Shown here piece after piece: positions 7,846-56,023 of a DNA stretch of 64,000 nucleotides. The first letter of the stretch is position 1. Each line of letters begins with the position of its first letter. The position numbers and the translations under genes were made by a program. Source of the stretch: Chloroflexota bacterium (lineage in GTDB: Bacteria > Chloroflexota > Ktedonobacteria > Ktedonobacterales > JADMIN01). The stretch covers positions 1-64,000 of the forward strand of contig JAJPKE010000015.1 of NCBI GenBank assembly GCA_021323855.1, read 5' to 3'. The notes beneath the pieces were generated by a model, which was not told the origin of the DNA, did no database searches, and saw nothing but the letters and a program-made list of their open reading frames with translations.

Positions 7846-10800
7846 TCAGACGTTGGCGAGCGTGAGAAAATGGAGATTGTTGCCCTCGCCAACGATGATC
7901 CGTTGCCCGTTCCGGCTCACCGCCAGACACCTGAGTTCACTTTCCGCTGGCCAGCGAGCTACTTCGCCCCCTGTCTGTGCATCCCAGAGCCGCAGGGTCG
8001 CATCATCGGACACACTGAGGATAAAGCGGCCATCGGGGCTGAAGACGCCAGCATTCACCTCTCCGCTATGCCAGAAGGCGCGCAGCTCTTCTCCTGTTTG
8101 CACATCCCAGAGGCGGAGCGTCATATCACTGGATGCGCTGAGGATATATGTGCTATCAGGGCTGAAGACGCACGTATTGATGCTTTGTGTGTGCCCCCAG
8201 AACGCACGAACTTCATCTCCTGTCTGCGCATCCCACAATATGAGAGGAAAATGTTTCTCTGTCAGGCTAAATAGTGCCCCTTTTCCACCCAGGACGTAGC
8301 GGCCATCAGGGCTGATGGCGCAAGCGGTCACCGTACTGGCATACTCATCGCTCTGTTCCTGGTACATGTAGATGAGTTCTCTCGTTTCGACATCCCACAG
8401 CCGGACACCGATATCCCGGAGATCTCCTGACGTACTCACGATGTAGCGGCCATTGGGGCTGATGGCGCAAGACTCTATTCGTTCCGTATGATCCTGGAAA
8501 ATGGCGCTTTGCTCGCCCGTTGTGACATCCCACAGGCGGAGGGTGCTATCCTGCGATCCACTGAGAGCGTACTTGCCATCGGGGCTAAACGCACACGTTA
8601 GAACCATTTTGGTATGTCCCTGGAGGATGCGCACCGGCTCCTCGGTCTCAACATTCCAGAGCCGCAGCGTGTTATCTCTGGAAGCGCTAAGAGCATAGGT
8701 GCCATCAGGGCTGAAGGCGCAGGACCATATGAGATCAGAATGGCCCTGAATGGTGGTGCTCTGTTGGTTTATCTGATCTACTGTAGCACGCTCGATATTC
8801 GCGACATTCCAGAGTCGTTGTGTGTTATCGTTCGATGCGCTCAGCGCGTACTGACCATCTGGGCTAAATGTGCAGGCGCTTACCCTGGCTGTATGTCCCT
8901 GAAAGGTATGGAGCGGCGCGCCCGTTTGCAGGTTCCAGAGGCGGAGGGTGAAGTCATCAGATGCGCTCAGGAGGTGGTTTCCATCCGGGCTGAAGGCAAG
9001 AGCATTCACATAGGCGGTATGACCGGCGAACGTGCGCAGCGCCTTCCCCGTTTGCGTCTCCCACAGGTGTATCGTGTAATCGCTCAGCGTTCCGAGGATA
9101 TACCGCCCATCCGGGCTGAAGACGCAGGTATGGATCAACCCATTCTGCACCTGAAGGGTGTAGAGCGGTCGCCGTTTCTCGTTCTGTACATCCCAGACGA
9201 GGATGCTGGCGTTCCAGGACTCGGCATCGCTCGATGCGCTCAAGGCATAGCGCCCATCCAGGCTGAAGGCAAGGGCGCCCATCGCGCTGCGTCGCCCCTG
9301 AACGGCATGCGAGTGAGCCGTGCGTCTCTGCTCGATATGCGAGATGTCCCAGAGACGCAGGACATGATCTTCCGATGCGCTCAGGATTTGCGCGCCATCC
9401 GGGCTGAACATACAGGTCTTGATTTCAGCGAAATGCCCCAGGAGCGTAGCAACCAATTCGCCGGTTTCCACGCTCCACAGCCGCAGTATGCCGTCGCGCG
9501 CGCCACTCAGCACATACCGGCCATCAGGGCTGAACGCAAAAGCATGAATCCAGTTGGGATATCCCTGGCGTGTCTCAGTTGGCCCCTGAAATGTGCGGAC
9601 AACAGTTCCTGTCTGGATATCCCATACCTCTACGGTAGAGGCGGAAGTACCGCCTACACTCAGGACATAGCGTCCGTCTGGGCTAAAGATGCAGGCGCTG
9701 ATGCTGCCTGGCGTTTTCTGGAACGCGAGTCGTTCTTCCCCTGTTTGCACATCCCAGAGCCGTATGGTGTGGTCCTGGGGCACGCTCAGCACATAGCGCC
9801 CGTCGGGGCTGAAAACACAGGCGCCTGTATAGGTATTGTGTGGCATGATGCGCAGCAAATCGCCGCCCGCTTTATCCAGCGTTTGTGAGGTCAGCGCGAA
9901 ATGCGGGTCGGGCCACATCGGCCAATCATGCAGCAATGGATAGACCGACGGCGCGCGTACCCGTAGCTGGTTCGGCAGTTCCTGTGGCGCGCTGTCGAGG
10001 ATATGGCGGCTCAACTCCAACGCTTGTTTGAGCATTTGAGGGCTGCTGTCTTCGTTCGTCAGATACGAGAGGTCATCTACTGCGGCCTGTGTTGAGCCAG
10101 CCTGAATGCGCGCCTGGAGAAACTCCGCGTCGAAGAGCGTCGCGTGGAGTTCGTCCCATAATTGGCCTGCCGCCTGTTGGAAGGCCAATTCGCTGACCAT
10201 CCGTTCATTGACGATACCGCGCGGGCGCTCGGTGGTATTCACGAGGTAGGGCGCCTGCCCGGAGACTCTGCTGAAATAGTGAGCGAGGTCCCGGTGGCGT
10301 GCGCTGTTCGTGTCGCCGGAGAGATAACGGCTTTCGATGGCGCTCTGCACCTGCTGATGGTAAAACGCGAGCACAGCCGTCTGGTCCACGGCGCGTTCGG
10401 TCAACCCCCACTCGATATCGGCATAGAGCCGCGCCCAGAGGACCGCCGGAAAGTGTTTCCCCTCCGGCGCAAACAAGTACGAGCGTGTCATATCACGAAC
10501 AAGATCGGGATGCTGGTCAATGACGGCGAGCACTTCATCTTCAGTGAGGCCATGCTTGCCGGCGGCGATGAGTCCCAGCGCGTAGGACGGCAATACCTTC
10601 CCATGCTGCGTCTCCTCTTCCATCTCCCCTAGCCAGGCGCCGATGAGACCCGGAACCGTTGGCTGGAGTGGCGGAAGCTCAGTTCTCCACGATGGCCAGC
10701 GGCGCGCTCGTTCGGCAATCACGCGCAGGCCGAGCGGGTTAGGATGGTCCCGATAGTAGGCTTCGATGGCTGCCAACTGGTCAGGCGTACAGGCACGGCC

Positions 10801-12288
10801 CTCATCTCTGAGCCACGCGCCAAACAAGGTCATAGCGTCGCCAACGGCGGGTGGTCGAACAGTCATCTGCGCAGTGGCGGGCAGGCGAGACTGGATGGCG
10901 TCACTGTCAGCTCCCGGCAGCATCGAGATGATCAGGTGGACGTGAGGCGGTAACGTTGCTGGAATCCACCGGCTGAGGTGTTGCTGGTCCTGGGAATGGC
11001 TCTGAGGATGGTCGCCCTGAAGCTGGTCAAGGGCGTCTACCAGCAGCATGAGTGGGCGATCAGCCGTTGCCAGCCCCAGGAAAACAGGCAATTGGCGTTC
11101 GCGTTCGGCAAAGGAGTCTGGCACCACCAGATCGTTGGGGTGAGGGTAGGCGGCCAGCAGATCGCGCTCGATGCCAGCCAACAGGTCGCTGACATGCGAG
11201 ACCGTCGTGGAGCCGCCAATGAAATACTGCTGGTGGAGGACGTTTGTGTAGGTGGTAAGCGCAGCCTCCGCCGCTTTGAGCAGCAATGAGGTTTTGCCGA
11301 TGCCGGGGACGCCGGAGAGCAGCAATGGCGTCGCGGCAGGAGCGGACAGATAAGCGGCAATGCGTGCCAATGCGTCTTGCTGGCCAGCGAAATGGCGCAG
11401 CCGGTCGCGCGCGAAGGCAAGGTGCGCCAGCGCATCGCGGTCATCGGCTTGCTCTCCAGCAGAGCGCGCCAGCGCCCTATCAATACGCTGCGTCAGCGCC
11501 TGTTGTATCTGGGTGCAAAACGCTTCGATTGATTCATCACTGATGTGGCCATCAATCACCTCGGCGTTGTACGTCTGGTAGTGTTCTCCATAGGCGGTGC
11601 GCAGATTGGCGATCAATGCAGCCAGGTGTTCTCTACCCAGCGTGGTTGGCTCTTTGAAGTGGTCTGGAGCGCCAGCGTTGGTCATCCGGCGATGGAGAAT
11701 CAGTGGGGTTGCCGTTGGAGACCCTTGATAAATGCCAGCGTCAATCTCTTGCTCGGTCACGGAGGCCGTCAGCGCAACACGAGTCTGATGTGAAACCGGC
11801 GCGGTGTCGCATGCCCCGCTGAGCGCATCATGCAACATCACGCTCTCCTGCTCCCAGCCATCTCCGCGTGGACGCAGCACATATGCAGCGAGAACGGCGT
11901 TGGTGTCCAGGCGATACCAGCGTTGCGCCAGTGTGCGCGCGCTTTCCGAGAGGTGCGCCATGAGCAGGTCAAAATCCATCTGGGGAATGGCTTCAGCGAG
12001 CATGCGTGTGCCATAGCGATCACCAAGCAATGCGACGAAGTTGACATCGGGCGAGATGCGCTGGCAACGGCCAATTTCTTCCAGGCAGGCGCGCACGACA
12101 TACTGGTCTGCGCTGGCTGATTCTGAAATTCCCCAGCGCAGATCAATCGGCAGGAATCGCGCACCGCGTTCCAGGCAATAGCGACGCAGCGCAGGGAAGA
12201 CGCGCGCCTGCAAGGCATCGCGCTCGGTTTGGAAATCAGCGAAGGTCGAACTGAAGAAGACGCGAATGACCGGAGCGAGATGTGGCAT
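7846..12288 (-). CDS. DUF4062-STAND NTPase-WD40 repeat giant protein
   Basis: 1480 residues from the ATG at 12288, which follows GAGG; the frame extends upstream to 12489 but that part has no family features. Order: DUF4062 (about 8-105; VIRVFFSSTFADFQTERD), a helical linker, a STAND/NACHT-like NTPase with P-loop GVPGIGKTS (326-334) and Walker B LMLLVDALDQL (about 425), a helical region, then 15 WD40 units from about residue 830 (repeated FSPDGRY...LRLWD), enough for two seven-bladed propellers. This order recalls animal NWD1/NPHP3-type proteins and bacterial STAND sensors, which oligomerise after ligand binding. No separate effector domain was recognised except DUF4062. A sensing or conflict role is inferred. 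Confidence 0.92.
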   Translation of the reverse strand: MPHLAPVIRVFFSSTFADFQTERDALQARVFPALRRYCLERGARFLPIDLRWGISESASADQYVVRACLEEIGRCQRISPDVNFVALLGDRYGTRMLAEAIPQMDFDLLMAHLSESARTLAQRWYRLDTNAVLAAYVLRPRGDGWEQESVMLHDALSGACDTAPVSHQTRVALTASVTEQEIDAGIYQGSPTATPLILHRRMTNAGAPDHFKEPTTLGREHLAALIANLRTAYGEHYQTYNAEVIDGHISDESIEAFCTQIQQALTQRIDRALARSAGEQADDRDALAHLAFARDRLRHFAGQQDALARIAAYLSAPAATPLLLSGVPGIGKTSLLLKAAEAALTTYTNVLHQQYFIGGSTTVSHVSDLLAGIERDLLAAYPHPNDLVVPDSFAERERQLPVFLGLATADRPLMLLVDALDQLQGDHPQSHSQDQQHLSRWIPATLPPHVHLIISMLPGADSDAIQSRLPATAQMTVRPPAVGDAMTLFGAWLRDEGRACTPDQLAAIEAYYRDHPNPLGLRVIAERARRWPSWRTELPPLQPTVPGLIGAWLGEMEEETQHGKVLPSYALGLIAAGKHGLTEDEVLAVIDQHPDLVRDMTRSYLFAPEGKHFPAVLWARLYADIEWGLTERAVDQTAVLAFYHQQVQSAIESRYLSGDTNSARHRDLAHYFSRVSGQAPYLVNTTERPRGIVNERMVSELAFQQAAGQLWDELHATLFDAEFLQARIQAGSTQAAVDDLSYLTNEDSSPQMLKQALELSRHILDSAPQELPNQLRVRAPSVYPLLHDWPMWPDPHFALTSQTLDKAGGDLLRIMPHNTYTGACVFSPDGRYVLSVPQDHTIRLWDVQTGEERLAFQKTPGSISACIFSPDGRYVLSVGGTSASTVEVWDIQTGTVVRTFQGPTETRQGYPNWIHAFAFSPDGRYVLSGARDGILRLWSVETGELVATLLGHFAEIKTCMFSPDGAQILSASEDHVLRLWDISHIEQRRTAHSHAVQGRRSAMGALAFSLDGRYALSASSDAESWNASILVWDVQNEKRRPLYTLQVQNGLIHTCVFSPDGRYILGTLSDYTIHLWETQTGKALRTFAGHTAYVNALAFSPDGNHLLSASDDFTLRLWNLQTGAPLHTFQGHTARVSACTFSPDGQYALSASNDNTQRLWNVANIERATVDQINQQSTTIQGHSDLIWSCAFSPDGTYALSASRDNTLRLWNVETEEPVRILQGHTKMVLTCAFSPDGKYALSGSQDSTLRLWDVTTGEQSAIFQDHTERIESCAISPNGRYIVSTSGDLRDIGVRLWDVETRELIYMYQEQSDEYASTVTACAISPDGRYVLGGKGALFSLTEKHFPLILWDAQTGDEVRAFWGHTQSINTCVFSPDSTYILSASSDMTLRLWDVQTGEELRAFWHSGEVNAGVFSPDGRFILSVSDDATLRLWDAQTGGEVARWPAESELRCLAVSRNGQRIIVGEGNNLHFLTLANV

Positions 12289-12424
12289 ATGGTCCTCTAT
12301 TTCCTGTACAAAATCACAGTTGGTTTCTATGGTTTCTATGGTCTTTACGCCACTTCGCGCCCATCTGAATGTGCTGTGGCCACACCAGCTACACCGGCTA
12401 CATCTGCCCGGATCAGCCGCGTGC

Positions 12425-12757
12425 TCAACTATCAGTGTCCGGGCTGGTGGGGTCCAACCACGAGCGTTGACGAGGAGAATCACTGGCAAGTGTCGTATGG
12501 GTGAGCTTACCCGTACTCTCCAATTGCTCTAGCGCCCGTCGCACGATGCCTTCGCGGGTACTTCCCTGCTGATGATAGAGATTCAGGCTTTGCTCTAGCA
12601 TGGCCTGCGCAGCGGACGGTTGCCCTTGTCTGGCGAGCGCATAGCCAAGCGCCAGCAGGATATCAGCTCGCTCAGGAGCGGATTGATGAGCGCGTTGCAG
12701 TACGCGATACTCTTGATGAGAGTATACACTATTTCTATAAATTATCCAGCCGGGCAT
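12425..12757 (-). CDS. Small TPR-like protein or TPR gene remnant
   Basis: 110 codons ending 136 bases before the STAND gene. Residues about 18-82 form two TPR-like helical hairpins (PERADILLALGYALARQGQP, then AMLEQSLNLYHQQGSTREGIVRRALEQLE). No ribosome site precedes the ATG at 12757, and the P450 gene ends 8 bases away, so this may be the 3' remnant of a longer TPR gene. Confidence 0.4.
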   Translation of the reverse strand: MPGWIIYRNSVYSHQEYRVLQRAHQSAPERADILLALGYALARQGQPSAAQAMLEQSLNLYHQQGSTREGIVRRALEQLESTGKLTHTTLASDSPRQRSWLDPTSPDTDS

Positions 12758-12764
12758 CTATGCT

Positions 12765-14021
12765 TTATACAAATGCCAGCGGCAGGCGTTGCAGGCCACG
12801 GAAGGAGATGGTGTCGCGCCATTGGGGCGTCTCATCCAGCATGCGCAGGTGTGGATGGCGGCGCAACAAGGACTGGATGGCGACCTGCCCTTCCAGCCGG
12901 GCCAGCGGCGCACCCAGACAATAGTGCATACCCATACCGAAGGTAAGGTGACGGTTCTCGCGGCGCGTGATGTCCAGCCGTTCGGGGTCAGGGAAGACGT
13001 CTGGGTCGTGGTTGCCGGAGCTAAGCAGCAGGTTGAGCGTCTGCCCGCGCTGAATCACCTTGCCGCTGACCTCGATATCTTCGCTGGCAACGCGCGAGGT
13101 CATCTGGCTGGAGGCATCATAGCGCAGAAACTCCTCGACGGCGGAGGGCATCAGATCGGGTTGCGCGCAAAGCAGCGCAAACTGGTCCGGGAAGCGCATC
13201 AACGCCAGCATACCGTTGCCAATGAGGTTGACGGTGGTTTCGTGGCCGGCGATGAAAAGCGTCGTCAGCGTGACGATCAACTCAGGCTCGCTCAATTGGT
13301 CGCGCTGATCCTGCGCCTGAATCAGCCCGCTGAGGATGTCGTCGCGAAGCGCCTGGCGCCGTTCCTCGATGATCTGCTGGAAGAATGGGTAGATTTCCAG
13401 CGCCACCTGGCTCGCCGCCAGATAAATCTCCGGCGATTGCTTGCAATCCAGCGCCTGTACCAGCACCCGCGCCCAGCGGATCAACTGCTCGCGCGAGTCC
13501 ACCCTGACGCCCAGCATCTCTGAGATGATCGTCGTCGTCAGTGGCAGCGCATAGTCGTTGATGACATCGAGTTGCCCCTGCGCATCGGCGGCATCCAGCA
13601 ATTCATCGGCGACGGCCTGTACACGCGGACGTAGCTTCTCGATCTGGCGCGGCGTGAAGGCGCTGCTGACGAGATTGCGCAGGCGTGTATGCGCCGGTGG
13701 ATCGGCAAACAGCAGCGATTGGCTGGTGAGCGAGAGATAGAGTTGCACGGCATCGGGGAGCGCCGCCTGCGACGCCGTGCGGTCGTCATCCGGGAGCCGG
13801 TGAACGAAACGCTGATCTTTGAGGATGCGCATGATATCTGCATGGCGCGCGATATGCCACATGCCTGCTATTCCTGGCTCGAACGACATGCCCCAGTGAA
13901 CCGGGTCCTCGTTGCGCAGGCGGTGATAGAACGGATACGGATCGAGATGGAAGGCTGGCGCGAAAAGGTCGAACCAATCGACGGATGGCGCAGTCGTCGT
14001 GGTCGTCGTAGGCGTCTCCAT
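12765..14021 (-). CDS. Cytochrome P450
   Basis: 418 residues, a soluble bacterial class P450 monooxygenase. Seen: the I-helix AGHETT (oxygen activation, about 245), the ExxR motif EEFLR, and the heme loop FGMGMHYCLGAPLAR with axial Cys368. The N-terminus has a run of Thr codons and no membrane anchor. The start ATG at 14021 follows GAGGGG. No ferredoxin or ferredoxin reductase gene adjoins, so the redox partner is elsewhere. It is closest in style to CYP107/CYP109-like enzymes, but the substrate cannot be told. Confidence 0.95.
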   Translation of the reverse strand: METPTTTTTTAPSVDWFDLFAPAFHLDPYPFYHRLRNEDPVHWGMSFEPGIAGMWHIARHADIMRILKDQRFVHRLPDDDRTASQAALPDAVQLYLSLTSQSLLFADPPAHTRLRNLVSSAFTPRQIEKLRPRVQAVADELLDAADAQGQLDVINDYALPLTTTIISEMLGVRVDSREQLIRWARVLVQALDCKQSPEIYLAASQVALEIYPFFQQIIEERRQALRDDILSGLIQAQDQRDQLSEPELIVTLTTLFIAGHETTVNLIGNGMLALMRFPDQFALLCAQPDLMPSAVEEFLRYDASSQMTSRVASEDIEVSGKVIQRGQTLNLLLSSGNHDPDVFPDPERLDITRRENRHLTFGMGMHYCLGAPLARLEGQVAIQSLLRRHPHLRMLDETPQWRDTISFRGLQRLPLAFV

Positions 14022-15640: not shown

Positions 15641-16465
15641 CTATATCAGTTCTTTGCGCTTCAGACGGTCTATACTGGCCGTCACATCCGTGATGTTCAA
15701 TCCGGTCGCCCTGGCGATGCTGGCCGGTGTTGCACTTGAACTATAGGCCGCCATGACTACGCGGTCAATATCCACTTTGCCGAATTCACCCATTGTGATC
15801 GTCAACACATTGTTGATGAGGGTACCTGCACTGGCCAGCGGGACATACTGGCCTCCACTGTTTTTGGCTATCTGCTGAAAAGTGCGCTGCATATCGCGGT
15901 CGTTACCGATGCCCAGGCAGAAAATCGTGATACCTTTCTCCCTCGCCTCCTGCGCCACCGTCTGTACGTTATGCCCACAGGGGCAGCCACGCGAGAACCC
16001 ATCGCCAGATGCTCCCTCGCCATGCGGAGGAGCATCGCCCGCCAGCAAGATCACTTTATGAGAACCTTTGCGCCATTGCATGCGATACACTGCATCGTAG
16101 ATGCCATCAACGACCGCTTCAGGCCCGTCGCCGCCGCCTTCGGCACTTGCCCTATTGAGCGCCTGCTGTGTCTGCTCCAGATTTTCAGAAAGTGGAGACA
16201 GATTAGTGACGAACGAGCTATCTTCTGGTGGATGGTCGCGATAGAGAACGAGTCCATACGCCATTTTGGGTTTCATGCTATGTGTCGCCAGCTTACTTGC
16301 AAATGCCTTGAGTTCTTTGCGGGTAGCGTCAATATAGCTGGACATGCTACCAGTTGCGTCCATCACGAAACAGATATCCACCTGGCGTAAGGCTTCGTCG
16401 GCGTCAAACAGTGGGTTTCCCGAACGGTCATGGTGTCCGCCTGGCGGTTCATAGCGGCGAGGCAT
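15641..16465 (-). CDS. vWA protein with C-terminal winged-helix-like segment
   Basis: 274 residues from the ATG at 16465 (AGGAG upstream). Residues about 29-215 form a von Willebrand A domain with MIDAS DATGS (Asp36, Thr38, Ser40) and a second metal motif AGDAPPHG. It is most like vWA domains found with alpha-kinases. Residues about 225-274 (VDIDRVVMAAYSSSATPASIARATGLNITDVTASIDRLKRKELI) look like a winged helix with a recognition helix. That pairing suggests an output that touches DNA, which is inference. Last gene of the nine-gene vWA/kinase/phosphatase operon. Confidence 0.85.
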   Translation of the reverse strand: MPRRYEPPGGHHDRSGNPLFDADEALRQVDICFVMDATGSMSSYIDATRKELKAFASKLATHSMKPKMAYGLVLYRDHPPEDSSFVTNLSPLSENLEQTQQALNRASAEGGGDGPEAVVDGIYDAVYRMQWRKGSHKVILLAGDAPPHGEGASGDGFSRGCPCGHNVQTVAQEAREKGITIFCLGIGNDRDMQRTFQQIAKNSGGQYVPLASAGTLINNVLTITMGEFGKVDIDRVVMAAYSSSATPASIARATGLNITDVTASIDRLKRKELI

Positions 16466-16591
16466 GGTTGTATTCTCCTCACATACTGCAAATACAACAT
16501 TCGATGAAACAACAAACAACAACAATTGACGCATGACAGGAATGTACGCAATTGCTGGGACTCCTCACCCCACACACCACCCCTCGGCGCC

Positions 16592-16954
16592 TCACGGTGT
16601 ACCTGGTGGTTTGTGTGTGCGAATCACCCGTGTACCTGAAGACGCGGGGACAGGAGGCGTCGCGCGAATGCCAGAGGCGCTTGCACCGGTAGGCGAATAG
16701 CTCCGTATCACCTTAGCGCCGTGTGGCGCAGGGGGCGTAGGAGGGCGATAGGGGCCGACGACTGGATTGACAACTGGGTTGACGACCGGCGTCCCAGCCG
16801 CAATGCCCCGCAAAAACTTGCCGTAGGTGGCTTGCCTGAGCGCTCCTGTACTGATTGCCGCGCGCTCGGTAGCAGGAATAGTAAACGTCGGCCAGGGAAC
16901 ACGGTTGCTGGTTTGCGCCTCTGGGAGAGCTGGAACAGCAGTTGGCGTCGCCAT
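16592..16954 (-). CDS. Small Pro/Ser/Thr-rich protein of unknown function
   Basis: 120 residues from the ATG at 16954, 8 bases after GAGGTGAG. No domain is recognised. The C-terminal half repeats a motif, AKVIRSYSPTG and TRVIRTHKPPG, and has several Ser/Thr-Pro sites; the middle reads VVNPVVNPVVGP. It lies 27 bases after the kinase gene in the operon. A phosphorylation substrate of the kinase/phosphatase pair is possible, by inference only. Confidence 0.65.
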   Translation of the reverse strand: MATPTAVPALPEAQTSNRVPWPTFTIPATERAAISTGALRQATYGKFLRGIAAGTPVVNPVVNPVVGPYRPPTPPAPHGAKVIRSYSPTGASASGIRATPPVPASSGTRVIRTHKPPGTP

Positions 16955-16981
16955 AAGACTTCTCACCTCATTTCTGGCAGA

Positions 16982-18406
16982 TCATGCAACCTGAGCAATA
17001 TGCACTTTGATGCGGAAATATTCAGTACCGGGGCCGCCCTGCAAGAGCATGCCATTGACCAGCGGCAGCGATGAATTGACCGGCCAGGTGCGCCACACGC
17101 CCGCACTCCCACCGGGGCCACTGCTTCGCGCCTCTGGAAGCGCCAGGTTGGTGATGTACCATTGGTCTTTATGTGGGTCGTAATCGAACGCGGCTTTGGC
17201 GGCGATATCTGGCATCTGGTCTGGCGCTGGTGGTAATGATGAAGCGTTTGGCTTGAAATGCCAGGCATTGAGCGTGCGCTCCGGCCAGCCGACGACATAA
17301 TGGGCGCGCATGAGGTCCATTTGAAAGTCATCGGCATTGCTCGATCCTTTGTGACGCATCAAATAGAGGAATGGTAGGTTAGTAGGCTGCTTGATACGCT
17401 GATTGCAGCATGGGCAGGCGAGTCCGCGTGTGGGCGCGGCCACGTAACTGTGCCAGTCGCACGATGGCGTGGGGCAGGGAATGACCCGGTCGTAGAGATG
17501 CCAGAGCGCCTCCTGCCATTCGGCGGGCTGCGGGCGACGGCCAGGATCGAAGAGTCCCTCTACGAAGGCGCGGCGAAAGAGTTCGCTCATCTCATTGCCG
17601 AGAATCCGCGCGCTATATGGCTGCCCCTGCGCGCGATTGGAACGATCAGTTGGATGTTCGATATAGAGTGCGCGTTCACCCAGGCGTAGCTCTTCGTCGC
17701 GGTCTGGATCCCTGGAATCATGCACCTTGTCTCCGTTCAACGGATGCCAGCGCAAGAGCCAGAGGTAGAGAATCACTGCCAGTGCGTGCCGGTCACTGCG
17801 CACATTAGGTATGGTTAGTGACCCCTTGACCAGTTCCGGCGCGCGATACCAGGATGTCCCCTGGACAGTGGGTGAAATGCGGCCAGGAACGGTGATGCTG
17901 TCGCAATCAATCAGCGTCATACGGCCATCATAAGCGTCCACCATAATGTTTTTGTCAGAGAAATCAGGATAACAGAGTCCACTCGACGAGAGACGGTTGG
18001 CCGCGTTCACGATTTTGATGGCCGCTGCCACGCGCCCAATGAACCAGCCGCGCTCGTCTGGCTTGAGAACCCGTTCATAGTAGGTGCGGAAGAAGAAGTT
18101 ATCAACCGTACGCAACCCCTGAGCGAAGCGCATGCGGAACCCAATGCGTGGCCTGATGACGAGCTTCTCTGGCCAGGAGAAATACTCTTCCCAGTAGGGT
18201 GCATTTTTGGTCGGGTTGACATCATTGATAAGTGTCTTGATGCGTTGCATGCGCTCAGCATCATAACCTGGCCGTGAGAAGTAGAGTTTGACCAGGTGTT
18301 TCCCAGAACGCGAGCGGAATATCTCGCCTTCCGCCCCGGCGCTGAGCGCTTCGGTGTCGTATTCTTCAGTTGTGCCATCCTCAAAGGTAACGGTTTGGTA
18401 GGGCAT
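16982..18406 (-). CDS. Ser/Thr protein kinase with zinc ribbon
   Basis: 474 residues from the ATG at 18406. Kinase-fold residues: glycine loop LSAGAEGEIF, ATP-binding Lys40 (LVKLY), catalytic segment YPDFSDKNIMVD (Asp148 and Asn153 kept; the usual HR replaced by YP and the usual +2 Lys by Ser), metal Asp167 in LIDCD, and RAPE at about 188-191. A CxxxxC...CPCC zinc ribbon follows (311-334), then a C-terminal beta-rich part (about 400-474) that may be FHA-like but lacks clear phosphothreonine-binding residues. It resembles the E. coli YegI class in gene context (next to a PP2C and vWA genes). The catalytic loop is atypical, so activity needs proof. Confidence 0.85.
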   Translation of the reverse strand: MPYQTVTFEDGTTEEYDTEALSAGAEGEIFRSRSGKHLVKLYFSRPGYDAERMQRIKTLINDVNPTKNAPYWEEYFSWPEKLVIRPRIGFRMRFAQGLRTVDNFFFRTYYERVLKPDERGWFIGRVAAAIKIVNAANRLSSSGLCYPDFSDKNIMVDAYDGRMTLIDCDSITVPGRISPTVQGTSWYRAPELVKGSLTIPNVRSDRHALAVILYLWLLRWHPLNGDKVHDSRDPDRDEELRLGERALYIEHPTDRSNRAQGQPYSARILGNEMSELFRRAFVEGLFDPGRRPQPAEWQEALWHLYDRVIPCPTPSCDWHSYVAAPTRGLACPCCNQRIKQPTNLPFLYLMRHKGSSNADDFQMDLMRAHYVVGWPERTLNAWHFKPNASSLPPAPDQMPDIAAKAAFDYDPHKDQWYITNLALPEARSSGPGGSAGVWRTWPVNSSLPLVNGMLLQGGPGTEYFRIKVHIAQVA

Positions 18407-18446
18407 AGGGTTTACCTGCCTTGATAATTCTCGTTGTGATGGTAGT

Positions 18447-20480
18447 TCATTTTGCGCTGCTGGTTGGACGGTAGATGGCAACCAGCGTGCGGTCATCAAA
18501 GGATTGCCTCTGCCGGTAGCCCAGCCTATCTTTCAGCGTCTCTGCTGCCTGCTTTGCCGAGAGCGTTGGCGCGAATGCCTCAGTGATGCCATGCTCCTGC
18601 AAAAATTTGGTTAGTTCTGGTATGGGTTGCCCGTTGACGACAGAGACCCCCAGATCATCATCTATACCATCGGTCATGCCGAGAATGATGGTTTCGTGGA
18701 TCGCTGGCTTCACATCACAACTGTGCTGCCAATCGTCATCCGTCGCGCGGAGCAGCGGCAACACCTGATTGTCTATACCACTGATTTGTGGCTTTTGGAG
18801 ATAGCGCCAATCGGGCCGGTCAAACGCGCCAGCGAAGAGCGCGCCGTCGCCGATCTGGGCACTGGCGATAAAGAGCAGCGGCTCTCCCATCCGGTTCCGA
18901 TAGGGCACGGCGATGAACACCAGCAGCGTTGAGTGCAGTTCGCTCACTACAATCTCTTCCTTATCGGCTCTCGCTTTCACAGCGTCTCGCGCTGCCTGGA
19001 AGCAATTGAAGAGGCTGGCCGTGGCACATCCCCTTGCTGCCCCTGACTCCGGCTCGCGCTCGATCTCGCGCAGCAGGTCATATAGTGCATTGCGCGATGG
19101 GTTTGGCGACGACTGCACGGCCTGTGTCACACCCAGGACGGCGGCGCGGGCGCCCCAGCGTGAGAGATGCTTGGAGCCAACGCCATCAGCGATAGCAACT
19201 ACCATCGCTCGATTGCCCACGAGAGCAAGATCAAAATCGTCTTCGCGGAACAGCCCATCTATTTCATGGCCCAGCCCCCGGCGGCTGGCTCCGACTGCCC
19301 GCCAGCCATCGGTAAAGAAGCCATATCTTGTGTTGGTAGCTGGCGCATTGGGGCCAGCGTTATATATCGTTCTGCGGTCGGCTGCTGCCATGTTTTCCAT
19401 GCGCTGCATTGCTGATCCAGGGACATTTTCACTATCCTCTTTGTCCGCATACTTCCGTTGAATAGGCATCTGCTCATTGTTTGCATCGGTATACATCCAG
19501 AGCAAATGTGGATGCTCATGTTGCTCCTCTGCATAGTTTTTGGGATTTTGCTTCTCGATCTTATTCACATCCACCGGCTCTTGGCGCGGATTCGGAGGAG
19601 GTGAGGTGACGAGACGTTGCGGTGGTGGCGGAGGCGAAGGTGGCAGCTTTCCTGTCACCTTCGCTGCTGGCGGCTGCTGATCGCCAGCGGCCTCATTTGT
19701 CTGTTCTATGGCGTTGCCCGCCTGAACTCGTGCCGTATCTAGCGACGATTGTGCGTCGTCTTTTGAGCCAGCCAGCGGTGCATTCATTACTTCACTTGTT
19801 GGGCTGAGTTTAGGATTGGCAGCAGGTGATTTTGTAGGCTGCACGAGAGGTTGCGCTGGAGGTTGCGCCTGGCCAGTTCCTGGTGCAACAACTGGCGCAT
19901 GTTGCCTTATCGCAGTCGGGGATCGGTGTTCTTCGGTGCGCACAGCTTTTACCTGCCCGGTATCCGCAGATGGTGGTTGCGTACCCTTTTCATCACGCAT
20001 CGTCGCTGGTTGCTGCTTCGCATTCCCATCATCAGGGGGCTTGTGTTGTTGAGAATCATCGTGTGTCATGTGGTTGACCTTTCCTGGCGCTGGCTGTTCG
20101 GATCGAAAGAGAATGACGACGAGTGCGAGGAGTGCAAGAACACCTAAAGCAAGGAGCAAAAGTCCCAGGGTATGCAGCGGTGACGCGCCCGGATGGGGAG
20201 CAATGGCCGAAATCAGGATAGCGAGAATTGGAGTGAAGAACAGTTCCATCAAGAGAATGAGCAGGAGAAGCACTATTGCAATGACCAGGATGACGAATAA
20301 CAGCACCGATCCCCATCCAGCAATCAGCACATCCTGCAACCTATCGAGGATGTCCTGGTTCCCTGGTTGAGCGGTTCCGCGATGGAGAGGAGAACCGTGC
20401 AAGCGTAGTCGCTTGACCTGCTGTTTGGCTTTGGGGGCAGGTGGCTCTGGTTTGTCACGCCTGATTGGCGGATGTCCCAT
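18447..20480 (-). CDS. Membrane-anchored PP2C-type protein phosphatase
   Basis: 677 residues from the ATG at 20480. Order: basic Pro-rich N-terminus (1-50), two or three membrane helices (about 52-93 and 103-125), a 250-residue low-complexity Pro/Gln/Ala linker, then a PP2C domain (about 385-677). Metal-binding motifs: VVAIADGVGSK (motif with Asp-Gly), GMTDGIDDDL and DDRTLVAIY. Most PphC/YegK-type phosphatases are about 250 residues and soluble, so the membrane anchor and long tether are notable. It lies 40 bases before the kinase gene and probably reverses its action. Confidence 0.88.
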   Translation of the reverse strand: MGHPPIRRDKPEPPAPKAKQQVKRLRLHGSPLHRGTAQPGNQDILDRLQDVLIAGWGSVLLFVILVIAIVLLLLILLMELFFTPILAILISAIAPHPGASPLHTLGLLLLALGVLALLALVVILFRSEQPAPGKVNHMTHDDSQQHKPPDDGNAKQQPATMRDEKGTQPPSADTGQVKAVRTEEHRSPTAIRQHAPVVAPGTGQAQPPAQPLVQPTKSPAANPKLSPTSEVMNAPLAGSKDDAQSSLDTARVQAGNAIEQTNEAAGDQQPPAAKVTGKLPPSPPPPPQRLVTSPPPNPRQEPVDVNKIEKQNPKNYAEEQHEHPHLLWMYTDANNEQMPIQRKYADKEDSENVPGSAMQRMENMAAADRRTIYNAGPNAPATNTRYGFFTDGWRAVGASRRGLGHEIDGLFREDDFDLALVGNRAMVVAIADGVGSKHLSRWGARAAVLGVTQAVQSSPNPSRNALYDLLREIEREPESGAARGCATASLFNCFQAARDAVKARADKEEIVVSELHSTLLVFIAVPYRNRMGEPLLFIASAQIGDGALFAGAFDRPDWRYLQKPQISGIDNQVLPLLRATDDDWQHSCDVKPAIHETIILGMTDGIDDDLGVSVVNGQPIPELTKFLQEHGITEAFAPTLSAKQAAETLKDRLGYRQRQSFDDRTLVAIYRPTSSAK

Positions 20481-20556
20481 GATCGTCTCATTTCTCGCTG
20501 CCGCATCGCGCCGCATCGCGCTGTTCTGAAAAGTGTCAGTAATCAAGACTCTTGAG

Positions 20557-20604
20557 ATGGTAATGGTAATGGTTATGGTAATGGTTATGGTTGTGGTTGT
20601 GGTT
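20557..20604 (+). repeat. Six-base tandem repeat at a gene end
   Basis: Eight units of ATGGTA/ATGGTT/GTGGTT in a row. On the minus strand the repeat covers the last codons of the vWA gene (giving a Gln-Pro run), its TAA stop and the following spacer before the PP2C gene. Copy-number change could alter the C-terminus or spacing. Confidence 0.8.
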
Positions 20605-21316
20605 CAACCCCATACGGAAATGGCGGCAACTCCATGACAGCGTTGCCTGAGACATAGGCATCACATTCCAATGCGATCAATTGTGTTGCCCAGGCGAAAA
20701 AGTTGGACAGTGACTCCGCTCGCGCCGGGTGCAGGCGTAATAAGGTACAGCCAAATGGCCGCAAGGCCGCCGACAAATCAATGCGCATCTGAAGCACGAT
20801 GAGTTTTGGCGTATGTCTGGCGCCTGCACGGTGGAGATATGCCAGCGCCTGCTGCCAATCTCGTTCATCGTTCGGGATGTCGCCAAGCACCAGGAACACC
20901 AGCGCATCCAGGTCGCCTGGATGTTGTGGCGTAGGATCAATCGTGTCGTAATGCAGCGCGGCTGCCAGACTACGTAAGGCGGGCGCCAGCGATGTGTCGC
21001 CACCGGCATCGAGCGTGAGTGGTGGTTGAAAATGTCGCACGGGTTCGAGCCACGGAAGCTGTGGCTCATGAAGCGCCGCAGCGCGCTCCTGAAGCGACGT
21101 GGCGCTGAGATAGGCATGGCGCGCAGACCACTGCTGCCGGGAGAGGACATTGCGCACATTGTCGAGACCCTCTAGCATGGCAACATTGAGTTGTCCGCCC
21201 ATATGGGCCGAACAATCCAATAAAAAGTACACCGGCAGGCGCCGCAAGTTGCGGATGGCGGGTAAGGGCGCAAGCGGCGCTCCACCAACCGGCGGCGATT
21301 TGGTCGGATCTCCCAT
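20585..21316 (-). CDS. vWA-like protein with degenerate metal site
   Basis: 243 residues from the ATG at 21316, which follows GGAG. The core is a vWA fold related to the two next genes upstream (LRRLPVYFLLDCSAHMGG). The MIDAS reads DCSAH instead of DxSxS, so the second Ser is lost; GGDTSLA keeps a Thr, and LVLGDIPND keeps an Asp. Ends in a Pro-Gln run encoded by a tandem repeat. Probably a structural partner of the canonical vWA protein, by inference. Confidence 0.8.
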   Translation of the reverse strand: MGDPTKSPPVGGAPLAPLPAIRNLRRLPVYFLLDCSAHMGGQLNVAMLEGLDNVRNVLSRQQWSARHAYLSATSLQERAAALHEPQLPWLEPVRHFQPPLTLDAGGDTSLAPALRSLAAALHYDTIDPTPQHPGDLDALVFLVLGDIPNDERDWQQALAYLHRAGARHTPKLIVLQMRIDLSAALRPFGCTLLRLHPARAESLSNFFAWATQLIALECDAYVSGNAVMELPPFPYGVEPQPQP

Positions 21317-21347
21317 CAGCAGCTCCAACTCATGAGATGACAGTGTT

Positions 21348-21401
21348 CACTCTGGCCTGCGGCCACTCCTCTCCCCGCAGGGAGAGGAGCCGGAGGTGAG
21401 G
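21348..21401 (-). repeat. Dispersed CCCCTCTCC palindromic repeat, copy 1
   Basis: In minus orientation it reads CTCACCTCCGGCTCCTCTCC, a short loop, GGAGAGGAG, then GTGGCCGCAGGCC. The same right flank, GTGGCCGCAGGCC, occurs in the copy at 43235-43280. Located between two vWA genes. Confidence 0.7.
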
Positions 21402-21412
21402 ATATACCTGAC

Positions 21413-22075
21413 TTATCCGCCATATTTGATGACGCCGGATACAGCGGCGGTTGGCGCAACCATATCGGCGGTTTCACCGCCGCCGGCCAGCGCTTTCGAG
21501 ACGCCGGCAATAGAGCCAGTGATCCACTTGAAATAAGCCTTGATCTGCTCAGGCGTAGCATCGCGCATCAGGTAAACTTCATCAGTGACCTGCCTCAGCA
21601 TGGCCGGATCTGCGTCGTCGCCACAGCCTAGCGCGATAATCGTGGGCCGCTGACTGCCGCTCAACGCCTTGATCTTTGCGACTTCCGGCTGCCAGACATC
21701 AGTCGGTTGGCCATCGGTGAGGAGATAGACCAGCGGGCGGTAATCGCCTTTCTTCGTGGTATCAGTGGTCGCGTTCAGGTCGTTCTGGATGGATTCCACC
21801 AGCACATGGAAGGCGGACCCCATCGCCGTGCGTCCGCCAGCCGTGAGCGCTGGTGGAACGAAATCTACCAGCGCCGTGAAATCTTCCTGCTCAGCGGCAT
21901 CTGCAAAGCGAATGACTGAGAGATAGACCGTTTCGACAGCGCGTGGCTCTCTCATTAGTAAGCTATAGATCAGCCCCAATCCTTCATTGACCGCAACGAT
22001 TGGATCACCCATCATCGAGCCGGAACAATCGAGCAATAAATACACCGGCAGACGGCGCAAACCACTGGATGGCAT
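21413..22075 (-). CDS. YegL-like vWA domain protein (canonical MIDAS)
   Basis: 220 residues, almost entirely one vWA domain, the size of E. coli YegL. All metal-site motifs are intact: DCSGS (MIDAS 1), GGRTAMG (Thr) and LLTDGQPTD (Asp). The ATG at 22075 follows GAGG. YegL-type vWA proteins are encoded next to a kinase and a PP2C phosphatase, as here. vWA domains hold partner proteins through a bound metal; a scaffold or clamp in a phospho-signalling complex is the likely role. Confidence 0.9.
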   Translation of the reverse strand: MPSSGLRRLPVYLLLDCSGSMMGDPIVAVNEGLGLIYSLLMREPRAVETVYLSVIRFADAAEQEDFTALVDFVPPALTAGGRTAMGSAFHVLVESIQNDLNATTDTTKKGDYRPLVYLLTDGQPTDVWQPEVAKIKALSGSQRPTIIALGCGDDADPAMLRQVTDEVYLMRDATPEQIKAYFKWITGSIAGVSKALAGGGETADMVAPTAAVSGVIKYGG

Positions 22076-22190
22076 AGCAATTCCTCTTTCTCAATACGTG
22101 CGCAAAACACTGCGCGCAACAGAAGAAATCAATCAGGGACGATAGACGGCAGTATCACAGGTATCATCTGGTGGTTCGTCTGTTCTGTTC

Positions 22191-22949
22191 CTATGGGTCC
22201 TCCTCTTCATCTGTTCCGTTCGCTGGCTGCGCTCCACTGGCTGTCGCCGTCCTGGTTGTATTGATGCGGCGCACGCTAGCTTCCAGCGACGATGGTAGCG
22301 CAAATTGTTCACGCACCGCCTCCTGCCCGGTGACGGCCCTAGAGAGATTCACGACAGATCCAGACGTGAAGCGGAAAAATCCGCTAATGAGGTCTGCCGT
22401 TACCTCATTCATCTGAAACACGGTGTCGGCAACTGCGGTGAGAGTTGCCGTATCGGCATCTGCTCCGCATGCCAGCGCCACAATCGTTGGACGCTGGCTC
22501 CCCTGGAGCGCCTTCAATCGAGGCAATTCCACCTGCCAGTCATCAGTTGCCGCGCCGCTCAAAAACAAAAAGACTAATGGACGGTAATCACCTTTTTGCG
22601 TCGTTGTGCCAGCTTGCAAATCCAGTTCGATGGAATCTACGAGCAGGTGGAGCGCCGCTCCTAACGAGCAGCGCCCACCAGCCATCAGCGGCGGCGGAAG
22701 GAACTCTGTGAGTGGAATCAACTCATCCTGCTCGGCGAAGTCAGCGAAACGAATGATCGAAAGCCAGACCATTTCGACAGCGCGCGGCTCACGCATGAGT
22801 TGTTCGTAGATCACCTGCAATCCCTGGCTGAGCGCAACCATCGGTTCGCCGCTCATGTCACCGGAGCAATCGAGCAACAGATATACTGGCAGACGGCGCA
22901 GATATCTGGGGCTGGCAAAGAGATCTTGCTCACCTGTTGACTCATCCAT
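22191..22949 (-). CDS. vWA domain protein, YegL paralogue with damaged MIDAS
   Basis: 252 residues from the ATG at 22949, preceded by GGAGA. It is clearly a paralogue of the next gene (shared RRLPVYLLLDCSG, LMREPRAVE, IIRFADFAEQ, LKALQGSQRPTIVAL). MIDAS 1 is DCSGD (second Ser to Asp), the Thr motif is GGRCSLG, and the third motif is LFLSGAATD (Asp to Ser). Metal binding is therefore doubtful. The acidic tail (TDEEEDP) is unlike its relatives. It starts 14 bases after the MotB-like gene. Confidence 0.85.
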   Translation of the reverse strand: MDESTGEQDLFASPRYLRRLPVYLLLDCSGDMSGEPMVALSQGLQVIYEQLMREPRAVEMVWLSIIRFADFAEQDELIPLTEFLPPPLMAGGRCSLGAALHLLVDSIELDLQAGTTTQKGDYRPLVFLFLSGAATDDWQVELPRLKALQGSQRPTIVALACGADADTATLTAVADTVFQMNEVTADLISGFFRFTSGSVVNLSRAVTGQEAVREQFALPSSLEASVRRINTTRTATASGAQPANGTDEEEDP

Positions 22950-22963
22950 TGCAGTTCTCCACT

Positions 22964-23503
22964 TCAACTCTGCGCATAGAGATACACTTCTAGATTGACA
23001 TAGCTGAGACTACTGTACAGGCTGAAGAATGGAGGGTGATAGGAGGTGCCAATGAAAACGAACCCCTGGTTGCCCAGCGAGCGCAAGACGTCTTCTACCT
23101 TACTGGCAATGTCTTCTGCTTCTCCGGTAAGGCTCTGATCCGGAGCGCCGCCAAACGCCAGCACGAGGCCAGCCCGGCGCCCCTTAAGCGCGTGTTGCGC
23201 ACGCACTTGATTGGCCACATCCTGGCGCGCGCTGGCGCTGCCTGCCAGTAACCCTTGATAATCTACCGTCAGGCTGAAGACCGTCGGTTTGGTTTCCAGG
23301 CGTACCAGTGGCGTCGCGGTTGGGATTGGCGTGAAGGTCGGCGTCGGTGTGGCATGTGCCTGCGTAACCGTGATATCGCGAGTATTGGCGATCAGGAAGA
23401 TCATCGCCAGCGCCAGCAAAAGGTCTGCAAAGAGCCAGCCCGCCGTGTGAAAGAGCGCGCCGCGTTTGCCAGAGTGACCGGAACGCGGTAGATCATTCAT
23501 CAT
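22964..23503 (-). CDS. MotB/ZorB-like single-helix membrane protein
   Basis: 179 residues. A short cytoplasmic N-terminus (about 20) leads to one membrane helix, AGWLFADLLLALAMIFLIANT, with an Asp inside the membrane, as in MotB, ExbD and ZorB proton-path helices. A Pro/Thr linker (TPTPTFTPIPTATP) follows, then an outer domain of about 105 residues (VFSLTVDYQG ... VLRSLGNQGFVF) whose strand-helix order resembles a reduced OmpA-like fold without clear peptidoglycan-binding residues. The gene follows that of the coiled-coil membrane protein. A stator-like pair is inferred; OmpA homology needs structure prediction. Confidence 0.7.
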   Translation of the reverse strand: MMNDLPRSGHSGKRGALFHTAGWLFADLLLALAMIFLIANTRDITVTQAHATPTPTFTPIPTATPLVRLETKPTVFSLTVDYQGLLAGSASARQDVANQVRAQHALKGRRAGLVLAFGGAPDQSLTGEAEDIASKVEDVLRSLGNQGFVFIGTSYHPPFFSLYSSLSYVNLEVYLYAQS

Positions 23504-23593
23504 ACAGATAAACCTTTATCATCGAGCGTGACAGCGTGTAGATGATGTGGCAGCGCCAATGAGTGTGCGCTGCTGACACCGATCTACCGTTCC

Positions 23594-25090
23594 CTACCAC
23601 CAGCCAAATGGACCACGTTTCGTCTTGCCAGCCTTGCCTTTTCCGCCCTTCGCAGTGCTCCCTGGACCTGGGAAAGCACCGGGAGATCCCAATATCACAG
23701 CGAGCTGGCTAGCAGCAGCCGCCAGTTCGCTGGCCGCCAGTTCCAATTGATCGGTTGCCGCTACCATGCGCTTCTCGTATTGCTCCAGGTCGCGCGTGGC
23801 ACTGCTGACATTGCCGCCGATCTGGGCAATGTGCGGCTGCATTTCTTTGGTGATTTGCTCGGCAACCGTCTTGACAGAATCAGCGGAAGCGCCAATTTTT
23901 TGCAGATCGTCTCGCAATGCGTTTTGCGTCGCGTTGAGTTGCGTGACATCAATATTGACCTGGCCCAATCCCACTGCTGCACCGTTGATTTCGTCAGCCG
24001 CCACTTTGAGCCGTTCGTTCACCGTTGAGATTTTGGTGGAAGCATCAACTACGCTCTGCGTCATCTCTGTGAGGCTCGGTTTCAACCCAGCCGTCAGTTC
24101 TTTCGAGACAGCGGAGACTTCTGTGGCTGCCGTCTTCATATCGCCGGAAATAGGGGCCAGTTCGCGTACTAAACCCTGCTGAGTGGTATTGAGTTCACCA
24201 ATCTGGCTGCTCAGTTGATTGCCGATGGTCGTGTAGGTGCCAGCATTCTTCGCCAGCGCCTCCGCTGCTGTCGTTAGGCCGGAAGTGGCTGACGTCAGTT
24301 CTTCTAACTGCTGCTGGTTGCCGTTGAGTTCATCGTGGAGCTTCGTCAGGTCGCCCTGAAGCTGCGTCACCAGTTGTTCCGTCCGTTGCGAAAGGTCGCG
24401 TGTCGCCTGCATAGTCTCGTTGATGACCAGTTGAATGGTTTCGGCCACGGACTGTGCGCTGACATCATCAGAAATCATGACGGCGCCTAGCATGTCGCTG
24501 GCCTTCAGCAACTCGGTTGTCGCCTCATCCAATTGCTTGACAAATGCCGCAGAATCGCGCTGTGCAGCGCTCTCACGCCGTTGTGCCTGGATAGTGAAGA
24601 AAAGACAAAGTGCGAGCAGGATGACGTCAGTGAAGCCGGTGTTTGTGAAGGTGAGAGAAAACGGCATATTGCCGTGAAACCCGCTCTGCCAGAGCGACAG
24701 AAAACTCTGACCATTGTCGCTGGCTTTATACACTTGCAGGTCTTGCTGATACGCAAGTGTGGCAAGCGAAAGCGCCAGCCAGGTCAAAATCAACGGGAGC
24801 AGGCTGAAAACATTGCGCCAACGATACCACTTCTCTGTCCGCGCGGATAGGTGATCTTCGACTTCTTGCTTGAAGAGTGGGGGATTCAGCCATTGGTAGG
24901 CGTCTTTGGCCGAGAGTCTCTTGAAATGAGAACTCACCTGTGATGCGCGTTGTGCTCCCAGCGGCGCACCCAACAGCTTGGCTTTCGCTGCCAGCGCGTC
25001 CAGCAGGGCGAGCGCCTTGTCCCGTTGTTTTTCGGCGGCGTCCGCTGCTATGGATGTTGCGGCGGGCATTGGTATTGCGCTTCCAGACAT
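23594..25090 (-). CDS. Two-helix membrane protein with long cytoplasmic coiled coil
   Basis: 498 residues; ATG at 25090 after GAGGG. Order: about 95 cytoplasmic residues, helix 1 (about 95-116, VFSLLPLILTWLALSLATLA), an outer loop of about 35, helix 2 (about 150-170, FTDVILLALCLFFTIQAQRR), then about 300 residues of near-continuous helix with heptads and many Thr/Ser/Gln, like chemoreceptor signalling rods or the ZorA tail, and a basic Gly/Lys end (GGKGKAGKTKRGPFGWW). First gene of the operon, before the MotB-like gene. It may play the ZorA/MotA part, although sequence similarity to MotA proper was not seen. Confidence 0.7.
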   Translation of the reverse strand: MSGSAIPMPAATSIAADAAEKQRDKALALLDALAAKAKLLGAPLGAQRASQVSSHFKRLSAKDAYQWLNPPLFKQEVEDHLSARTEKWYRWRNVFSLLPLILTWLALSLATLAYQQDLQVYKASDNGQSFLSLWQSGFHGNMPFSLTFTNTGFTDVILLALCLFFTIQAQRRESAAQRDSAAFVKQLDEATTELLKASDMLGAVMISDDVSAQSVAETIQLVINETMQATRDLSQRTEQLVTQLQGDLTKLHDELNGNQQQLEELTSATSGLTTAAEALAKNAGTYTTIGNQLSSQIGELNTTQQGLVRELAPISGDMKTAATEVSAVSKELTAGLKPSLTEMTQSVVDASTKISTVNERLKVAADEINGAAVGLGQVNIDVTQLNATQNALRDDLQKIGASADSVKTVAEQITKEMQPHIAQIGGNVSSATRDLEQYEKRMVAATDQLELAASELAAAASQLAVILGSPGAFPGPGSTAKGGKGKAGKTKRGPFGWW

Positions 25091-25101
25091 AAATACGCCC
25101 T

Positions 25102-25130
25102 CATATACACTCGCTTGCTCATACGATCAA
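25102..25130 (-). promoter_or_regulatory. Promoter of the nine-gene vWA/kinase/phosphatase operon
   Basis: On the minus strand TTGATC, a 17-base spacer, then TATATG, ending about 12 bases before the start codon. Both hexamers match 4 of 6 to the sigma-A consensus. The leader would be very short. Confidence 0.45.
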
Positions 25131-55946: not shown

Positions 55947-56023
55947 GGCTTCGCATGAAGCGAAAGTAAGCGCAGGCGACAGAGAATGATATTCCGTTGA
56001 CAATCAAGAAAAGGACATATTCA

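Follow-up and report, generated by a model that had tools for sequence, protein, structure and literature searches.

The stretch of DNA analyzed here, 64,000 nt of a Chloroflexota bacterium of the class Ktedonobacteria (assembly GCA_021323855.1, contig JAJPKE010000015.1, positions 1 to 64,000; hereafter the window), belongs to contig 43 of a genome that measures 5.59 Mb and is 89% complete. It carries nine open reading frames (ORFs) on the (-) strand, which together occupy 25090 to 15641 and are arranged as I-H-G-F-E-D-C-B-A. We use these letters for the genes and their products: I and H are proteins of 498 and 179 aa, G, F, E and A are vWA proteins, D is a PP2C phosphatase, C is a kinase, and B is Pro-rich. 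I and H are a new conserved membrane pair, inherited together with switches of the kinase-phosphatase-vWA kind across Chloroflexota and Actinobacteria. In the order of the operon, the genes are as follows.

23594..25090, (-): I, 498-aa coiled-coil protein with two transmembrane (TM) helices; no Pfam family beyond coiled-coil matches
22964..23503, (-): H, 179-aa ExbD/MotB-like protein; no Pfam match
22191..22967, (-): G, TerY-like vWA protein with a degenerate metal-ion-dependent adhesion site (MIDAS; DCSGD), overlapping H by 4 nt; weak VWA match, expectation (E) value 0.023
21413..22075, (-): F, TerY-like vWA protein with an intact MIDAS (DCSGS...T...D); VWA, E value 1.3e-7
20585..21328, (-): E, diverged vWA protein with a partly degenerate MIDAS (DCSAH); aligns with F and G, no Pfam match
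18447..20546, (-): D, PP2C phosphatase bearing TM helices in its N-terminal part (~81-150) and also a Pro-rich linker; PP2C_2, E value 3e-19
16982..18499, (-): C, Ser/Thr kinase with a C-terminal, zinc-ribbon-like Cys cluster; Pkinase, E value 3e-8
16592..16966, (-): B, small Pro-rich protein; weak counterpart in locus L010, E value 0.024
15641..16534, (-): A, vWA protein with a possible C-terminal winged helix; VWA, E value 1.5e-14; HTH_24, E value 0.074

An earlier account of this DNA, made from its letters alone (the sequence-only reading), had described nine same-strand genes in this order, and the ORF list agrees, with gaps ranging from -4 nt (the H/G overlap) to 115 nt. The nine-gene operon is confirmed as real, and its order is not a product of chance because the core recurs in other phyla. 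The listed kinase ORF overlaps the PP2C ORF, and the true start of the kinase is probably an ATG near 18406. Pfam placed the kinase, PP2C and vWA domains where the sequence-only reading had put them, E being recognizable as a vWA protein by its alignment with F and G, and the N-terminal helices of D fit the membrane phosphatase it had described. Its vWA-winged helix protein, gene A, kept the first of the two domains, the match to the second being weak, while its promoter-like site did not hold up: 7 such sites compare with 6.5 +/- 2.7 in shuffled sequence, which is not above chance. Genes A and B had no profile matches outside the window, and neither is part of the widely conserved core.

Separate profile searches for H and for I across 400 Chloroflexota genomes found I in 28 genomes, with H within 2 kb in 26 of them, 8 kb away in the same operon in another (G005), and unfound in one. 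When named genomes were scanned with the H alignment, 65 loci were recovered from Ktedonobacteria, Thermomicrobiales, Anaerolineae, Streptosporangiales, Streptomyces, Phytohabitans, and one Lysobacteraceae metagenome-assembled genome (MAG). Gene order was analyzed in the 53 loci with >5 kb of downstream sequence, and 52/53 have I upstream of H in the same orientation; the two genes overlap by 4 nt in many actinobacterial loci. Distances among I proteins follow those among H proteins (r 0.78 over 60 loci, permutation maximum 0.20), a correlation to which shared species history contributes, and for the full set of I, H, vWA, PP2C, and kinase, the distances show correlations of r 0.72-0.92, again confounded by species history. 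The sequence-only reading had staked itself on homologues being co-located in other genomes; I and H are indeed adjacent there, and I-H-vWA-PP2C-kinase recurs as an operon. We infer that the two proteins assemble into a complex. For the most part, the carriers are filamentous Actinobacteria and Ktedonobacteria; presence within families is patchy, and the system appears to have been transferred to the Lysobacteraceae MAG (L130). Relatives of I-H were found neither in viral contigs nor in plasmids, the latter searched with actinobacterial H as query. A second, diverged I-H pair is present in the window's own genome (L063, G000:C7:120400-140300; I at 10226-11176, H at 9684-10250), with a kinase of 700 aa and a caspase-domain (Peptidase_C14) protein encoded nearby.

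For H, AlphaFold2 predicts a single TM helix (residues 18-41) and a beta-alpha-beta-alpha-beta-beta domain of predicted periplasmic location (mean predicted local distance difference test score, 88), which a Pro/Thr linker precedes. The helix bears the motif GWLFADLLL, and its Asp, D27, is invariant (67/67). By probability, Foldseek ranks an OmpA C-terminal domain first for the model (4rha, probability 1.00, E value 0.018), and a MotB periplasmic domain appears among the lower matches. In hhalign comparisons, H aligned with the ExbD family over 109 columns including the TM Asp (62%, E value 7e-5), with reversed decoys at <1%; ExbD also provided the best matches of the H profile in the PDB (E value 0.05), and similarity to ZorB was weak. 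The N-terminal TM helix with its Asp and this profile similarity, of modest strength, support placing H in the ExbD/TolR/MotB superfamily. The Thermomicrobiales-type H proteins (L140, L144, L135, L141) measure 390-411 aa, compared with 160-200 aa in the others.

The confident part of the AlphaFold2 model of I, residues 10-210, comprises an N-terminal three-helix domain and two long membrane-crossing helices that extend into the cytoplasm; the coiled coil that follows was modeled with low confidence. The predicted topology runs from a cytoplasmic N-domain through TM1 (~94-116), a short periplasmic loop with the conserved motif PFLxLWQxGF, and TM2 (~151-173) into a long cytoplasmic coiled coil. 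Four residues, P99, T103, W104, and W134, are invariant in 80/80 homologues, T103 being located in the first TM helix, whereas at position 155, 47 homologues have Asp and 23 have Thr. ExbB/TolQ chains recur among the weak Foldseek matches of I (E values 0.2-1), as do coiled-coil proteins. Homology of I was examined by profile comparison, set against reversed decoys as well as unrelated TM proteins, the MotA/ExbB comparison sets being drawn from relatives of a Lysobacteraceae genome. With scores at decoy level, I is unsupported by sequence as a homologue of MotA, ExbB, or ZorA; a ZorA profile that readily tells MotA/ExbB apart from decoys (p 2e-29) does so for I only at the margin (p 0.01). Matches of I to ZorA in PADLOC were discarded because they fall in the coiled coil rather than in the membrane part, and a resemblance by eye between PIxxTWxGLxxAxxAY of I and GIxGTFxGxxxGLxxF of ZorA serves as a lead only. 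The ZorAB/MotAB-like pair claimed by the sequence-only reading is thus partly supported, H being ExbD/MotB-like and I not shown to be a MotA/ZorA homologue. Because these homology tests failed, we regard I as the founder of a new family, which may function in the manner of a motor A-subunit without belonging to that group; only the predicted topology, the invariant TM Thr, and the weak ExbB/TolQ fold matches point to such a likeness. Compared with ExbBD, TolQR, and MotAB, then, H aligns with ExbD and I is not recognizably ExbB or MotA, and neither TonB/TolA nor flagellar genes were recognized in I-H loci. True MotA/ExbB proteins (PF01618) are rare in the phylum, occurring in 6/61 genomes, and none is found in the window's genome.

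Judged by their sequences, the kinase, PP2C, and vWA genes of the window are a TerY-P triad, a known type described as vWA plus PP2C plus a kinase with a C-terminal zinc ribbon (PMC11090510). The components are adjacent as in the described triads; the vWA protein is TerY-like, the DG motifs are present in PP2C D, and the Cys cluster of the kinase (C342, C347, C362, C364, C365) is zinc-ribbon-like. The kinase, the phosphatase, and one vWA site appear intact: among the TerY-like proteins F keeps its MIDAS, G and E being degenerate copies, and such duplication of vWA genes around one intact MIDAS is also seen in some triads linked to CoCoNuT (PMC11090510). The window operon differs from described TerY-P systems in its preceding I-H pair and in the membrane anchor of its PP2C, and neither CoCoNuT/McrBC nor Ter genes were recognized in it. 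TerY-P-like modules with an OB fold in place of the zinc ribbon on the kinase have been reported as stand-alone phage defense (PMC11090510), and kinase-PP2C-vWA forms the third theme of the GTPase-centric conflict neighborhoods around GAP1-N2, in actinobacteria (PMC7159879). The claim of the sequence-only reading that no system of this composition had been described therefore fails for the triad and stands for its union with the membrane pair: in the open-access papers searched, we found no description of the I-H pair or of its union with the triad and BrxD-BrxHI.

The link between triad and pair recurs well beyond the window. A kinase search within the class yielded complete triads with I and H at L010, which holds a 55% identical relative of vWA F, and at L017, plus one truncated triad at L011. 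Overall, the triad is present in 21/65 I-H loci (17 actinobacterial, one Lysobacteraceae, and three Chloroflexota), mostly in the order I-H-vWA-PP2C-kinase. A vWA gene directly after H and then a kinase were seen in 18/53 loci, 17 of them with a recognized PP2C and one (L114) with no PP2C call; TerY-type vWA matches occurred nowhere else in those loci. At L017, in Ktedonobacter racemifer, a right-handed beta-helix protein (11242-13233, Pfam E value 7e-80), a relative of which is found in L056, lies between triad and I-H, and I-H is followed by a 1305-aa NERD-kinase-AAA protein (15859-19776) with a PglW-like domain mixture.

What might such a switch act upon? BrxD and BrxHI are a defense ATPase family and a defense helicase family, respectively, and in ten actinobacterial operons (L118, L124, L126, L138, L148, L151, L152, L155, L156, L160) both genes directly follow the kinase, the joints being as a rule overlaps of a few nucleotides. 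Two of these kinases (L124:4720-6246 and L138:12077-13723), each directly before BrxD, end in a domain resembling the PglZ C-terminus (E values 1.6e-21 and 2e-19). BrxD-BrxHI is the ATPase-helicase dyad of Type 2 bacteriophage exclusion (BREX) and, as SngB-SngC, of Shango. Of the Type 2 BREX set (PglX, PglY, PglZ, PglW, BrxD, BrxHI), the ten relatives have BrxD and BrxHI only; PglX and PglY were not found in the actinobacterial stretch, and PglZ is represented by the C-terminal-like domain of the kinase. A 2026 BREX survey calls BrxD-BrxHI a dyad, and its text mentions neither PP2C nor TerY.

I-H also occurs in a second context, together with DO-GTPase2 and GAP1-N2: Pfam confirmed it in L059, profiles did so in nine named loci, and L100 shows GAP1 alone. 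Here, in Ktedonobacteria and others, the pair is directly beside the two genes, both of which are absent from the window operon by Pfam. In five loci (L059, L107, L110, L120, L129), I-H lies between the GAP1-N2/DO-GTPase2 genes and two HSP70 genes on the opposite strand; a zinc-ribbon protein is also found in these neighborhoods. Seven Streptomyces loci flagged as DO-GTPase-like are treated as unconfirmed, L128 lying exactly at the Pfam cut-off and L149 having no Pfam match. The paper on GAP1-N2 systems does not mention a MotA/MotB-like pair (PMC7159879).

Around the window operon lie genes for a P450, a LiaF-like protein, a uridine-kinase-like protein, a NUDIX protein, and peptide deformylase. 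Compared via the uridine-kinase-like neighbor for an empty site, the flanks are not syntenic in genomes of the same family. Elsewhere, the window encodes an IS605 OrfB/TnpB-type transposase whose TNB domain is Cas12f1-like (5105-6445), a 1547-aa protein that contains an extensive region of WD40 repeats (7846-12489), and a 1029-aa helicase of the RecQ type that has TPRs in its N-terminal region (55997-59086).

Taken together, we propose, giving the idea an even chance, that the operon is a TerY-P phospho-switch wired to a two-subunit inner-membrane complex, I-H, which would act as an envelope sensor setting the switch for a defense effector. H would cross the membrane once, with its invariant Asp within the helix and its OmpA-like domain outside; I would surround it with two TM helices per subunit, the invariant Thr in the first, and extend a coiled-coil rod on the cytoplasmic side. 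When the envelope is disturbed, most likely by the entry of phage DNA or by wall or membrane damage, I-H would change, possibly as a gated flow of ions past the Asp of H, with the Asp/Thr pair coupling ion or conformational change. The rod might then pass the change on to the TerY-like vWA scaffold and shift the balance between membrane-anchored PP2C and kinase, such that the phosphorylated state licenses the effector. In Streptosporangiales, this effector would probably be the ATPase/helicase BrxD-BrxHI, whose genes come right after that of the kinase; the DO-GTPase/GAP1 system may instead receive the output of I-H in Ktedonobacteria and their relatives. In the window, gene A or a gene encoded elsewhere are candidates. 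Both ion flow and the direction of signaling in I-H are conjectural here, and a role of these operons in defense is suggested by their gene neighbors.

Several results weigh against this proposal. Foldseek matches for I or H never reach an E value of 0.001, and in profile-profile comparison the scores of the I family against MotA, ExbB, and ZorA equal those of reversed decoys. The OmpA family (PF00691) is unmatched in 17 H proteins, and peptidoglycan binding by H is therefore not indicated. The window has no recognizable defense island and no evident effector, and Pfam and PADLOC scans of the nine proteins recognized no BrxD/BrxHI-like gene in the operon. Finally, the related triads at L012, L013, and L014 have no I-H within 20 kb; I-H is therefore not obligatory for the triad.

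The nearest working analogy for the I-H operon is Zorya, in the published model of which ZorB senses the wall and the ZorA tail recruits effectors (PMC11890865). Both have a two-gene membrane unit, a first subunit with a long cytoplasmic coiled-coil tail (ZorA, I), and a second with one TM helix, a critical Asp, and a periplasmic domain (ZorB, H), for which H offers D27 and a predicted OmpA-like fold; in both, a DNA helicase effector may follow, namely BrxHI in I-H relatives and ZorD in Zorya. They differ in that I lacks detectable homology to ZorA and has two TM helices versus three in ZorA1, and in that a phospho-switch stands between sensor and effector in I-H systems only. ZorC, ZorD, and ZorE were not found here; among the nine proteins, PADLOC gave no significant match to Zorya effectors (ZorC, E value 0.028, to gene A only).

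Another way to read the pair is as a non-conducting, static tether or mechanosensor of the envelope, in which the OmpA-like domain of H contacts the wall and the coiled coil of I anchors the TerY-P switch at the membrane. The failed MotA/ExbB homology of I would fit such a device, as would the OmpA-like domain itself and the membrane-anchored PP2C, in itself a sign that the system assembles at the membrane. However, the TM Asp of H and T103, P99, and W104 of I are invariant, which a mere anchor would not require, and the closest kin of H is ExbD, an ion-coupled subunit; we consider this reading unlikely, if still a serious one.

Less probable in our eyes is that I-H operons serve housekeeping, as envelope-stress or developmental signaling of filamentous bacteria rather than phage defense. 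The filamentous habit of most carriers, the LiaF-like, cell-wall-stress gene near the window operon, and the failure to find the system in viral or plasmid collections all agree with this. It sits poorly with the patchy presence within families and the apparent transfer to the Lysobacteraceae MAG, and also with the operonic BrxD-BrxHI and the GAP1/DO-GTPase and caspase neighbors.

We are more doubtful still that I is a pore-forming, SLATT-like effector with two TM helices that H keeps closed and that the phospho-switch frees to kill the infected cell. The topology of I would allow it, and SLATT effectors of this topology have been placed with GAP1-N2 systems (PMC7159879), a context common to I-H. 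However, neither the window's I nor three A3 members of its family match the SLATT Pfam family, the length of its coiled coil and its strict pairing, in A-then-B gene order, with a protein like ExbD recall motor or energizer pairs more than SLATT proteins, and ten operons already have BrxHI-type effectors. That an ordinary TerY-P triad merely adjoins unrelated membrane genes by chance, as the I-H-free triads of the same order at L012, L013, and L014 might suggest, is scarcely credible and is dismissed by the recurrence of the same five-gene arrangement in three phyla.

Extending the proposal of an envelope sensor, I-H could be a new branch of ion-driven 5:2 motors beside MotAB, ExbBD/TolQR, GldLM, and ZorAB, and a general envelope sensor plugged into at least two switches, the TerY-P triad and DO-GTPase/GAP1, and via TerY-P into a BrxD-BrxHI helicase effector. 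We offer this wider view tentatively, as a possibility that may well prove wrong.

What is known here is the TerY-P triad; what is new, judged by the open-access papers searched, is the membrane pair I-H, as well as the way it is joined to the triad and BrxD-BrxHI. We did not find the trigger of TerY-P triads settled in the literature; with a co-inherited membrane pair, at least one branch of the triads would have a physical input, and the ten BrxD-BrxHI operons supply a plausible output. The position of I-H beside GAP1/DO-GTPase further connects two sets of predicted conflict systems, neither of which has had a known sensor. Should I-H prove to be ion-driven, the principle of Zorya, a membrane motor joined to a DNA effector, would have been reached a second time, with a phosphorylation switch in between.

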